The position numbers and the translations under genes are program-made. Below are positions 26,996 to 29,948 of a stretch of 64,000 nucleotides of DNA, in pieces. The notes beneath the pieces are model-generated. The model saw only the letters and a program-made list of their open reading frames with translations, had not been told where the DNA came from and did not search any database. Each line of letters opens with the position of its first letter. Positions within the stretch are counted from its first letter, which is position 1. This stretch comes from Demequina globuliformis (lineage in GTDB: Bacteria > Actinomycetota > Actinomycetes > Actinomycetales > Demequinaceae): contig NZ_BBRG01000002.1 of assembly GCF_000975155.1 (NCBI RefSeq), positions 186,001 through 250,000 of the forward strand, in the 5' to 3' direction.

Positions 26996-27475
26996 ATGGA
27001 CACACAGTTGGCGGTGGTCTCGCGGGTGTACGCCGGCGGTCAAACGGGCGTTGACCGGGCCGCGTTGGACGCCGCCATTCGCGCAAGTGTGGTCCATGGC
27101 GGCTGGTGCCCCGCCGGGGGCTGGGCTGAGGACAAGCCGTATGCGCCCGGGGTTCTCGTGACGTATCCGGGACTCAAGCCCACGATCGAGGCGGACCCGG
27201 CGGTCCGGACTCGACTGAACATCCGCGATTCGCACGCGACCATCGCGCTAGGTGTCACGGTCGAGTCCCCCGGCTGCTCACTCGCCCTTGACTACGCCCA
27301 CGCCACCGGTCGCCCCGTCCTGGTGAATCCCTCAACGCCCGAGGACGCACACGCGTGGCTCGCCGGCATCGGCCGCGAACTCATCCTCAATGTGGTAGGG
27401 CCCCGCGCGTCGGAGTCGCCGGGGGTCTACGACGGGGCACGGAAGTTCATGGACGCCCTCCTCACCCTGGTGTAA
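26996..27475 (+). CDS. Putative molybdenum-carrier-like protein (MoCo_carrier / YpsA-type Rossmann)
   Basis: 159-aa protein of the family named putative molybdenum carrier, a SMF/DprA/LOG-like Rossmann fold. The diagnostic phrase is SGGQTGVDRAALDAA, here AGGQTGVDRAALDAA, followed by GGWCPAGGWAEDKP and a late NVVGPRASESPGVYD motif. The biochemical role of this family is not settled; it may bind a nucleotide or the molybdenum cofactor. ATG at 26996 has GGGGAAGG upstream; a TACGGT box at 26950-26955 could be its -10. It is divergent from metK. Isolated gene, possibly horizontally acquired. Confidence 0.8.
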   Translation: MDTQLAVVSRVYAGGQTGVDRAALDAAIRASVVHGGWCPAGGWAEDKPYAPGVLVTYPGLKPTIEADPAVRTRLNIRDSHATIALGVTVESPGCSLALDYAHATGRPVLVNPSTPEDAHAWLAGIGRELILNVVGPRASESPGVYDGARKFMDALLTLV

Positions 27476-27520
27476 CCCACCGTCGCGCCTTTCCCTTCGC
27501 TGCACCTGACCACCACCCGT

Positions 27521-27572
27521 TCGTGCACCTGAGTGCCGGAATCCGTCGCAAAACCGGCACTGAGATGCACGA
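27521..27572. repeat. 52-bp REP-like palindrome, copy 1
   Basis: Arms 27521-27539 and 27554-27572 pair at 17 of 19 positions (outer TCGTGCA, inner AGTGCCGG) around a 14-nt loop containing GTCGCA. A second related copy with the same arm core, loop length and loop motif lies at 28625-28676, on the other side of the DUF559 gene and in the same orientation. Confidence 0.7.
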
Positions 27573-27589
27573 TGGAGGTGGATGGGCTG

Positions 27590-28519
27590 CTAGCGCAGGC
27601 GCTGGGCCACCACGCGCGTCACCATCTCTCGGCACCACTGCGGCCGCCGCGTGAGGTCCTCCCACGTCAGCCGCAAGGTTTGGAAGCCCACAGAGGCGGT
27701 GATCACGTCACGCTCACGGTCCCGAGCCCACGCAAGACCGGCGCCGTGAAATGCGCGTCCGTCAAGTTCCACGATCAGTTTGGCTCGCTCGTGGCACATG
27801 TCCGCGACGACCGTGCGCCCACGCGCGTAGATGACACGCTGCCACTGGAATGCCGCGAACTCTGGGCCGCAGAAGACATCTCGCTTCGCGATCACCTCCA
27901 TTGGTGAGTGAGCGCCTTCCCAGAAGTGCCTCAGAAGGTCGAGCAACGCCCGGCGCCCCCTCACCCGAACGCGGCGGGCGAGCTCGGCGGCGAGGGCATC
28001 GGCCGACGTGACCTGGCTCCACAGCGGCCGGTAGATCACGTCCTCCCGGGACTCGGGGCTCGCCTGGATCCACGCATCGATCACCGCCGCCGCTGCGTTG
28101 ACGGCGAAGGCGCCTTGCGCTTCCCGAGCCTTGGGCCACACGGTCGTGTACCGGACGTGAAGGCGGTCGTGATCGGCGACGCGATAGCCGTGGGGCACCA
28201 CGACCGCGTCCGCAGCAGGCGCCGGCCACTCGGGGACCATGATCGCAAGAGCTAGTTCACCAGAAACGAGTCCGCGAGGAAGCCACACGTTCAGCGCGAG
28301 AGCCCTCGCGAGCGGATCCTCACGGTGTGCGTGGCCTACGTACACCCCCGGCCGAACGCGGCAGATCTCCCCGGTTGTCACACCAGCATCGAGGCTATGG
28401 CGCGAAAACCACGACGTGAGGGTAGCCCGCCGGGCTGGTCGCGCCACACGGTGCAGATATGCAGCGATCTTTTCCCCGACAAGGGGCTGCGGGAGGTACG
28501 GTTCGGGCGTCGATGGCAC
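27590..28519 (-). CDS. DUF559 (Vsr-like nuclease fold) protein with AbiEi-like N terminus
   Basis: 309 aa. The C-terminal third is a DUF559 domain of the Vsr/restriction-endonuclease-like fold: LIVELDGRAFHG gives the Glu and Asp expected of a PD-(D/E)xK-type site, then RDRERDVITASVGFQTLRLTWEDL. The N-terminal part (VTTGEICRVRPGVYVG) resembles the winged-helix of AbiEi-type proteins. Such two-part proteins are frequent, often multicopy, in actinobacteria; their function is unknown. The GTG start at 28519 has no clear Shine-Dalgarno. It stands alone, flanked on both sides by copies of a palindromic repeat. Confidence 0.8.
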   Translation of the reverse strand: MPSTPEPYLPQPLVGEKIAAYLHRVARPARRATLTSWFSRHSLDAGVTTGEICRVRPGVYVGHAHREDPLARALALNVWLPRGLVSGELALAIMVPEWPAPAADAVVVPHGYRVADHDRLHVRYTTVWPKAREAQGAFAVNAAAAVIDAWIQASPESREDVIYRPLWSQVTSADALAAELARRVRVRGRRALLDLLRHFWEGAHSPMEVIAKRDVFCGPEFAAFQWQRVIYARGRTVVADMCHERAKLIVELDGRAFHGAGLAWARDRERDVITASVGFQTLRLTWEDLTRRPQWCREMVTRVVAQRLR

Positions 28520-28624
28520 CTACCCATCCCAGCGACTCTGTAGCGCACCCGGGGCTAACCTCCATCAATCTGTGGACGAAGCCGTACTCATGCGGCGCCG
28601 TGGACAGGACCGCGCTCCACGCTC

Positions 28625-28676
28625 GCGTGCATCTAGGTGCCGGTTTAGTCGCACTTTCCGGCACTCAGATGCACGA
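28625..28676. repeat. 52-bp REP-like palindrome, copy 2
   Basis: Arms 28626-28643 and 28658-28675 pair at 16 of 18 positions (outer CGTGCATCT, inner GTGCCGG) around a 14-nt loop TTTAGTCGCACTTT. Shares arm sequence, loop length and the GTCGCA loop motif with copy 1. Confidence 0.7.
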
Positions 28677-28703
28677 ACGAGGAGAGGCCCGCGCGAGGAG
28701 GGG

Positions 28704-29948
28704 CTAGCGGGAGGAGGGGCGCAGCGGGAGGGCGTCGAGGATCGCGTGGGCGACCGCGAGCTTGGTGCCTTGCGCCTGGGCTACGGGGTCGCCGTGCTCG
28801 TCGAGCATCGTGACCGCATTATCCGCGGTGCCGAATCCCTTTCCATCTCCCACGGCGTTCACCACCAGGAGATCTGCGCCCTTGCGGCGAGCCTTCGCGG
28901 CGCCATAGTCGAGGACGGATCCGCCGCTATCCCCCGTCTCCGCAGCGAAACCGACAACGACTTGTCCGTCGCGACGCGCGGCCGCAAGCCCAGCGAGAAT
29001 GTCCGGAGTCTGCTCCAACTCCAGCACCATGCCTTCGCCGCCCGACTTCTTCAGCTTGGACGGCGACACCTGAACAGGACGGTAGTCCGCTACCGCCGCG
29101 GCCATAATGACGACGTCCGCGTCGGGCGCCCGCGACTCCATGGCCTTCTGGAGCTGGGCGCTCGACTCGACGTCGATGCGCTCCACGCCTTCGCCAAGTG
29201 GGAGCGTCACATTCGCGGCGACAACGGTCACGGTCGCACCGCGCTCGCGGGCGGCCTCTGCCAGGGCGAATCCCTGCATTCCAGACGACCGGTTGCCGAG
29301 GTAGCGCACCGCGTCGATCGGCTCGCGGGTGCCGCCGGCCGAGATCAGCACGCGCACGCCGTCGAGGTCTCCCCAACTCCCGTGGTCGCCCTGGAGGGCC
29401 GATGCCGGGGTTGCTGGATTTGGCCCACTCACCAGGGCGTAGAGCGCCGCGACAACATCCTCTGGATCGGGAAGACGCCCGGGCCCAGAATCGGGGCCGG
29501 TCAGGCGCCCGACGGCCGGCTCAAGGACGGTCACGCCACGCTCGCGCAGCGTCGCCACGTTGGCGACCACGGAGGGGTCGCGCCACATTTCGGTGTGCAT
29601 CGCGGGGCACACCAGGATGGGTGCCTCGGTAGCCAGAAGCGCGTTGCCAAGGAGGTCCTGCGCGCGCCCCGCAGCCATCTGCGCCAGGAAGTCAGCGGTG
29701 GCGGGTGCCACCGCTACAGCCTGGGCCCGCTGGCCTAGCCGTACATGCTGGACGGAAGGGACGTCGTCAAAGACCTCGGTGGGTGCCGGGTGTCCTGACA
29801 AAGCCTCCCAGGTGGCCCGGCCCACAAATTTCAGGGATGCCGCGGTGGGCACCACTCGCACATCATGCCCGTCCTCCTTGAGCAGCCTGAGCACCAGCGC
29901 CGCCTTGTACGCGGCGATGCCGCCGGTGACGCCCAGGAGGACGCGCAT
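28704..29948 (-). CDS. coaBC: Bifunctional phosphopantothenoylcysteine synthetase/decarboxylase
   Basis: Two consecutive steps of coenzyme A synthesis. The N-terminal flavin decarboxylase half (1-180) has MRVLLGVTGGIAAYKA, active His68 (QHVRLG) and C114 in CPAMHTEMW. The synthetase half (195-414) has ISAGGTREPIDAVRYLGNRSSG, AAVADYRP and the KLKKSGG lysines. 414 aa is normal. ATG at 29948 follows rpoZ by 9 nt in a gmk-rpoZ-coaBC string. Confidence 0.96.
   Translation of the reverse strand: MRVLLGVTGGIAAYKAALVLRLLKEDGHDVRVVPTAASLKFVGRATWEALSGHPAPTEVFDDVPSVQHVRLGQRAQAVAVAPATADFLAQMAAGRAQDLLGNALLATEAPILVCPAMHTEMWRDPSVVANVATLRERGVTVLEPAVGRLTGPDSGPGRLPDPEDVVAALYALVSGPNPATPASALQGDHGSWGDLDGVRVLISAGGTREPIDAVRYLGNRSSGMQGFALAEAARERGATVTVVAANVTLPLGEGVERIDVESSAQLQKAMESRAPDADVVIMAAAVADYRPVQVSPSKLKKSGGEGMVLELEQTPDILAGLAAARRDGQVVVGFAAETGDSGGSVLDYGAAKARRKGADLLVVNAVGDGKGFGTADNAVTMLDEHGDPVAQAQGTKLAVAHAILDALPLRPSSR

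Follow-up and report, generated by a model that had tools for sequence, protein, structure and literature searches.

The window analysed here, a stretch of 64,000 nucleotides from the 2.62-Mb genome of Demequina globuliformis (G000), contains a nuclease gene flanked by two related palindromes (Table 1). The neighbours of this gene in the window are cpYpsA and coaBC. Both palindromes had been described in an earlier, sequence-only reading and were confirmed at the coordinates given there; their arms are common to the two copies, and the presence of a 14-nt loop was confirmed as well. The spacings given there, 17 nt between copy 1 and the 3′ end of the gene and 105 nt between copy 2 and the start codon, were both correct. 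The loop motif GTCGCA occurs in the two window copies, but it is absent from eight copies dispersed in the genome and is thus not conserved.

Table 1. Positions of the nuclease gene, its predicted domains and the flanking palindromes in the window
Feature	Position	Strand	Basis or location
309-aa protein, predicted AbiEi-type DNA-binding module and DUF559/Vsr-fold nuclease	27590..28519	-	Profile and predicted-fold matches
AbiEi-like module, model residues 13-200	27920..28483	-	Fold match 6y8q; PADLOC AbiEi E 5e-4
Vsr/EDxHD-type nuclease domain, residues 203-309	27593..27913	-	Fold matches 3hrl, 3r3p and 1cw0
Palindrome copy 1	27521..27572	.	Just past the 3′ end of the nuclease gene
Palindrome copy 2	28626..28675	.	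5′ of the nuclease gene

Comparison of folding with shuffled sequences gave z values of -3.7 for copy 1 and -5.9 for copy 2, and none of 200 shuffles equalled either. Occurrence of the window-type palindrome in the genome is more than expected by chance. The exact pattern GTGCCGG-N(6-22)-CCGGCAC was found at nine places in G000 versus two for the reversed control, and a fuller window-type pattern yielded nine sites versus none for its control. An intrinsic terminator and a known RNA family were both rejected as candidates, since between positions 27400 and 28800 of the window no terminator-like site and no Rfam match above the gathering score were found. The one sub-threshold Rfam match was to a microRNA model and lay inside the nuclease gene (28.4 bits versus a gathering score of 70).

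The earlier assignment of a DUF559 domain to the gene was borne out by a match to PF04480 (E 4.5e-7). The AlphaFold2 model of the protein was of high confidence, with a mean pLDDT of 93.0. Foldseek matched residues 13-200 to the AbiEi antitoxin 6y8q (E 2.5e-5), and re-comparison of the Foldseek matches, from which all Z and rmsd values given here derive, yielded Z 10.7 and rmsd 6.2 over 182 residues; the large rmsd may indicate that the sub-domains are differently oriented. Residues 203-309 resembled 3hrl (Z 13.2, rmsd 1.9, 92 residues), the homing endonuclease I-Bth0305I, 3r3p (Z 12.7, rmsd 2.5, 96 residues), and Vsr, 1cw0 (Z 10.0, rmsd 2.6, 102 residues). The model predicts a fusion of an AbiEi-type DNA-binding module with a Vsr/EDxHD-type nuclease. 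Residues E208, D240, E251, D253 and H258 were invariant in all 119 family members and D267 in 118 of them; E208, D240, H258 and D267 presumably form the EDxHD motif. Seven nuclease pairs showed dN/dS values of about 0.14-0.26, which together with the invariant residues indicates purifying selection on the protein and a nuclease domain that is probably active.

Palindrome pairs in the nuclease family

A search of 59 genomes revealed relatives of the window protein in 49; each of the 37 Demequina genomes in that search had 2 to 8 family matches. The flanks of 119 distinct members, nine of them from outside Demequina, were investigated; duplicate finds of one gene had been removed before counting, and L085 was dropped as it contained no nuclease match. 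Palindromes with loops of 9-30 nt were mapped at 69 loci. Within 150 bp of the gene, 35 were found in 68 downstream bins and 20 in 69 upstream bins, and the next 150 bp held two downstream and seven upstream. The distal background, 300 to 1350 bp from the gene, amounted to 12 palindromes in 959 bins of equal size. Palindromes are thus concentrated at the ends of the gene.

A matching pair of upstream and downstream palindromes was present at 49 of the 119 loci, when the threshold was set at the 99th percentile of random between-locus pairings (about 1% expected), and 62 loci exceeded the 95th percentile. The paired palindromes are roughly 50-65 bp long. Among the 70 loci that failed the pair test, some showed weak palindromes and others none that were detectable. 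Outside Demequina, five of the nine loci passed, including one on a Propionibacteriaceae contig, and flanking palindromes could be observed by eye at further loci. The two members of a pair were in direct orientation in 24 cases, in inverted orientation in 20 and equal in two (n=46), and this mixture implies no simple element structure. Judged from these sequence comparisons, the nuclease-palindrome pairing is real and general in this DUF559 family. A relative of the nuclease in G179, from another genus of the family, showed two near-adjacent copies of one palindrome downstream (L347).

Palindrome similarity dropped as protein distance grew (Spearman -0.55 for the 49 paired loci), and none of 2000 permutations gave a value as low. 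The half-site GAGGTGCT[CG][AG]GTGC flanks five of the 119 nucleases, all of one clade, four having been placed there by the tree and the fifth, L129, by its 82% identity to L037. The GGGACATGAG half-site flanks four of the 119. As shown by this comparison of sequences, palindrome and protein change together, each paired lineage having its own palindrome. The sequence-only reading had suggested that the DUF559 protein recognises or spreads the palindrome; recognition is well supported by the comparison, while spreading is a step that we infer.

Dispersed palindromes and comparison of sites

The window-type palindrome was found at ten sites in G000, eight dispersed and two flanking the gene (nine by the strict pattern, plus window copy 2). 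A pattern search detected none in the 43 other Demequina genomes, yet other members of the family have palindromes of their own, so that the proposed pairing withstood this search of the genus. The eight dispersed copies are at least 33 kb away from nuclease paralogs, as measured for the four of five G000 paralogs with a location. They adjoin unrelated genes, e.g. for a Mrp-type ATPase, transporters and methionine synthase, and two of them (L089 and L098) lie between convergent frames. The window-type copies L097 and L100 fall outside the stricter T1 expression, and the T1 set used for checks of length and of the tetranucleotide GTAG comprised ten counted but eight distinct copies, the window copies having been entered twice.

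Palindromes of the GAGGTGCT type (T2) were found at 38 sites in nine of 44 genomes, those of the GGGACATGAG type at 13 sites in seven and those of the CTGACACATG type (T5) at 15 sites in four; 11 of the latter were in one genome, nine of these being dispersed. Reversed-pattern controls gave no sites in the searches for the window, GAGGTGCT, GGGACATGAG and CTGACACATG types. Copies of the GAGGTGCT type away from the nuclease occurred in all five genomes in which the cognate clade was found versus four of the 39 others (p 1.2e-4); these counts come from related genomes and hence do not represent independent events, and the nuclease types were assigned from 119 fetched loci and matches at E ≤ 1e-60, a subset of the DUF559 genes of the genus. 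Four genomes thus possess GAGGTGCT palindromes with no cognate nuclease found. When only dispersed copies of the CTGACACATG type were considered, the corresponding fractions were 2/5 and 0/39 (p about 0.01, calculated by hand). Fisher values that include flanking copies are circular for T2 and T5, because the patterns were drawn from the flanks of those very nucleases, and the GAGGTGCT type is the only one with a strong non-circular co-occurrence count.

Copy numbers were low, ranging from 1 to 11 per type and genome. Two species with 92% identical nucleases carried 2 and 11 copies of the CTGACACATG type, which suggests a recent difference between them. Length was constant in all 35 T2 copies compared (of 38 found) and in all 11 T5 copies. 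Sequence conservation ended at the ends of the palindrome, and the flanks of dispersed copies were unrelated. The constant spacing would fit a protein reading both halves on duplex DNA. Of 43 T2/T3 sites examined, nine overlapped a mechanically called frame of more than 150 aa; in this G+C-rich DNA such frames may or may not be real genes.

Several further observations were made on the dispersed palindromes. At G000:C3:32656-32682 (L007), a palindrome has the same GAGTGCCGG core with other outer arms (GCAGTC.. type); it resembles one beside a nuclease of G036 (L066) and is perhaps an orphan of another lineage. The largest contig, G000:C8, ends within a window-type palindrome (L015), as if the assembly had broken at the repeat. 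Of 52 palindromes, 18 had GCATCGTC/GACGATGC at a distance of no more than 120 bp (e.g. L362 and the sites L286-L325) versus a background of 0.15 per 240 bp, a comparison confounded by intergenic position; these sequences might be a second repeat family that receives palindromes.

The gene metK was present in all 44 genomes. Among 30 metK loci listed, a DUF559 gene lay beside it in three (G000, G010, taken as D. flava, and G008), and the stretches L195 and L202 comprised metK only. The metK-side nucleases of G010 and G008 have diverged from the window gene (56% and 39% identity), and their palindromes are weak and of a different type, in G008 as judged by eye. The metK-coaBC sites that lack the gene were compared, as had been proposed. 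Genomes with such sites contain no window palindrome anywhere, so that the refuting case named in the sequence-only reading, a palindrome conserved here in the absence of the DUF559 gene, did not arise. Among 13 gaps listed, those of G024 and G030 measure 25 bp and 22 bp, too short for a palindrome to fit. In G064, G015 and G060, about 770 bp at this site were interpreted, by reading alone, as a dehydrogenase gene. The gap at mrp that holds a dispersed window-type copy is 163 bp long in G000. Of the 30 genomes examined, 23 have a gap of at most 102 bp, and apart from G000 none has the window-type palindrome there. The mrp gap of G010 contains a different palindrome, by eye of the AGTAGGGG type seen beside the G008 nuclease L024 (L238). 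Taken by themselves, the comparisons at metK and mrp reveal that a gain or a loss took place but do not discriminate between the two.

The GAGGTGCT nuclease aligned together with its flanks at one chromosomal place in G002, G031, G023 and G027 (taken as D. sediminis). At the same place, G032 has a nuclease of 69% identity with another palindrome (L039). For G022 the gene alone aligned, indicating that its GAGGTGCT-clade nuclease is at another place. G017 and G027 are 90-92% identical on both sides of the shared place; in G017 the gene and the second palindrome are absent, and the first palindrome is kept together with 21 bp beyond it. These 21 bp stop 7 bp before the position of the G027 stop codon, so that no stub of the nuclease is retained. 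A single palindrome thus persists without the gene at this locus; as five other species have the gene there, the simpler assumption is that G017 lost it. About 1.2 kb lie between the nuclease and the right flank in G002, G031 and G032 (L138, L139, L143); this stretch is missing from G023 and G027 (L140, L141).

Two recent duplications were found. A 497-bp stretch of G027 is present in two places separated by 23 kb, the copies being 99.6% identical with differing outer flanks (L293:747-1243 and L294:725-1221), and GAGGTGCT-type palindromes are located at or near both of its ends. The stretch may contain a small membrane-protein frame, as judged by reading. In G063 (taken as D. salsinemoris), two copies of a 100-bp stretch that includes one palindrome lie 7 kb from each other and are 99% identical, again in differing flanks. 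Both duplications are in line with copying of palindrome-bearing segments; their breakpoints are near the palindrome ends, not exactly at both, and ordinary recombination could account for them. A check by eye for target-site duplications at two recent copies showed only a GCGCGC microhomology at one.

Relation to known systems and proposed mechanism

The enzymes known to mobilise REP-type palindromes are HUH transposases. The Y1 (HUH) transposase domain PF01797 was detected in none of the 44 Demequina genomes at E 0.001 and was positive in five of 14 control genomes. GTAG was not found within 14 nt outside either end of any of 56 palindrome copies counted (54 distinct, the window copies being counted twice). 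Because neither the Y1 transposase nor the GTAG tag, two features that define REPtrons, was found in these searches, membership of REP/RAYT was rejected despite the look-alike layout. The sequence-only reading had proposed that a DUF559 protein and its own palindrome form a pairing analogous to, but different from, that of RAYT and REP. The 49 matching pairs among 119 loci support this proposal, and further support comes from the co-diversification, the dispersed cognate copies and the lack of a Y1 domain in the 44 genomes. Plasmid or phage cargo was rejected as well, as tblastn gave no match at E 1e-5 in plasmid and phage collections.

The layout of the system resembles that of REPtrons (PMC8049555, PMC8266576): both have a chromosomal gene with adjacent palindromes and lineage-specific dispersed copies, in both, copies also occur in genomes where no such gene was found, and the nuclease gene, like that of REPtrons, is probably inherited with the chromosome. 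RAYT genes are reported not to be seen on plasmids (PMC8049555), and the nuclease here likewise gave no plasmid or phage match. Unlike those of REPtrons, the palindromes described here are longer, have a centre of constant length and occur in far fewer copies, and the enzyme is unrelated. With regard to the REPtron trait of single-copy vertical inheritance, one nuclease clade is at the same place in five species and elsewhere in G022, and there are 2-8 paralogs per genome. With I-Bth0305I and Vsr the protein shares the nuclease fold, a DNA-binding region joined to a small nuclease and probably a long target; it differs in being free-standing between genes, with full palindromes on both sides and two gene-less sites without room for a palindrome. 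The fold of the predicted DNA-binding module is shared with the AbiE type IV toxin-antitoxin system, and the paired inverted repeats of AbiEi have about the same total length (PMC7319586), whereas here a nuclease is fused, site copies are distant and no AbiEii toxin is adjacent to the window gene. The DUF559 or REase_MTES_1575 family of Pfam, to which the C-terminal domain belongs by sequence, is catalogued by domain alone. Titles and abstracts yielded no publication linking DUF559 with palindromic repeats, bioRxiv preprints and most subscription journals being outside this scope, and publications mentioning both dealt with other subjects by title and abstract.

We propose a two-part system, made up of a nuclease gene on the chromosome and a palindrome private to it, in which the nuclease promotes copying of the palindrome; the probability of this reading is about 0.6. 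By analogy, two AbiEi-like N-terminal modules would bind the two half-sites of the palindrome, and binding would position the C-terminal Vsr/EDxHD nuclease near its centre. The two 23-bp inverted repeats bound by AbiEi are separated by 3 bp and the repeat pairs of Rv2827c, a protein of similar fold, by 13 bp (PMC7319586); I-Bth0305I forms a dimer on a target of nearly 60 bp (PMC3943268). A dimer on the palindrome with nucleases near the centre is therefore a natural model. Nicking or cutting at the centre, perhaps on an extruded or replicating palindrome, would start repair, this step being the least certain. Such repair may occasionally place a copy of the palindrome, in some cases along with adjoining sequence, at a new site, so that cutting at the palindrome would lead to its copying. 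The gene would be inherited mainly with the chromosome and the palindromes would spread slowly. 

Spreading of the palindrome by the enzyme is the best reading, with a chance somewhere between even and six in ten. Its main competitor, considerably less probable but to be taken seriously, is autoregulation. In that case the nuclease would be a tail on an AbiEi-like repressor and might serve in phage defence. The upstream palindrome would act as the operator of the gene, and the remaining copies would be further operators of a small regulon, none of them moved by the enzyme. The predicted AbiEi fold of the module is consistent with this, as are the autoregulation of AbiEi-type antitoxins through promoter inverted repeats (PMC7319586) and the position of the upstream palindrome, whose median distance from the start codon is 85 bp across the 49 paired loci. 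An operator would, however, leave the matching copy at the 3′ end superfluous, and the dispersed window copies are species-specific among the genomes searched and lie beside unrelated genes, two of them between convergent frames. The range of one type from 2 to 11 copies between species with 92% identical nucleases also argues against a regulon.

Homing would require the nuclease to cut gene-less palindromes, repair from the occupied locus adding the gene together with a palindrome, so that both sides become flanked. We regard it as improbable. The nuclease domain does match I-Bth0305I (Z 12.7), from a family reported to form dimers on targets of nearly 60 bp (PMC3943268), G017 has a single palindrome where G027 has palindrome, gene and palindrome, and the nuclease of G022 is placed differently from its relatives. 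On the other hand, a palindrome would not fit into two of the metK-coaBC sites without the gene, dispersed palindromes stay unoccupied despite a nuclease in the genome, and the G017-type locus is occupied in five other species, to one of which G017 is nearest, making loss simpler. Scarcely more credible, and if anything slightly less so, are host elements, i.e. structural repeats or RNA hairpins spread by another factor, beside which nuclease genes merely settle. Other palindromes seen by eye in the intergenic DNA of the genus would agree with this, as would the GAGGTGCT copies in four genomes with no cognate nuclease found; the search for a mobiliser covered the Y1 domain alone. Its absence from the genomes searched counts against another factor of that kind. 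Host elements also fail to explain why palindrome type tracks nuclease lineage and why the GAGGTGCT half-site flanks five of 119 nucleases, all of one clade, and the region 27400-28800 gave neither an intrinsic-terminator-like site nor an Rfam match above the gathering score.

Copying promoted by the nuclease is the reading retained here. A broader claim, that the fusion of a Vsr/EDxHD nuclease with an AbiEi module is a dedicated mobiliser of its own palindrome, giving a REP-like system with a hydrolytic nuclease in place of an HUH transposase, and that it has diversified into many such private pairs in Actinomycetota, stands at even odds. The nuclease-palindrome pairs point to an undescribed route by which short repeats spread. 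If this is true, they would represent a second enzyme-palindrome pairing, unrelated to the first, and REP-like repeats would have arisen more than once. A role would also be suggested for DUF559, a domain of unknown function, and dozens of natural protein-site pairs would be at hand for working out the code by which AbiEi-type modules recognise DNA.
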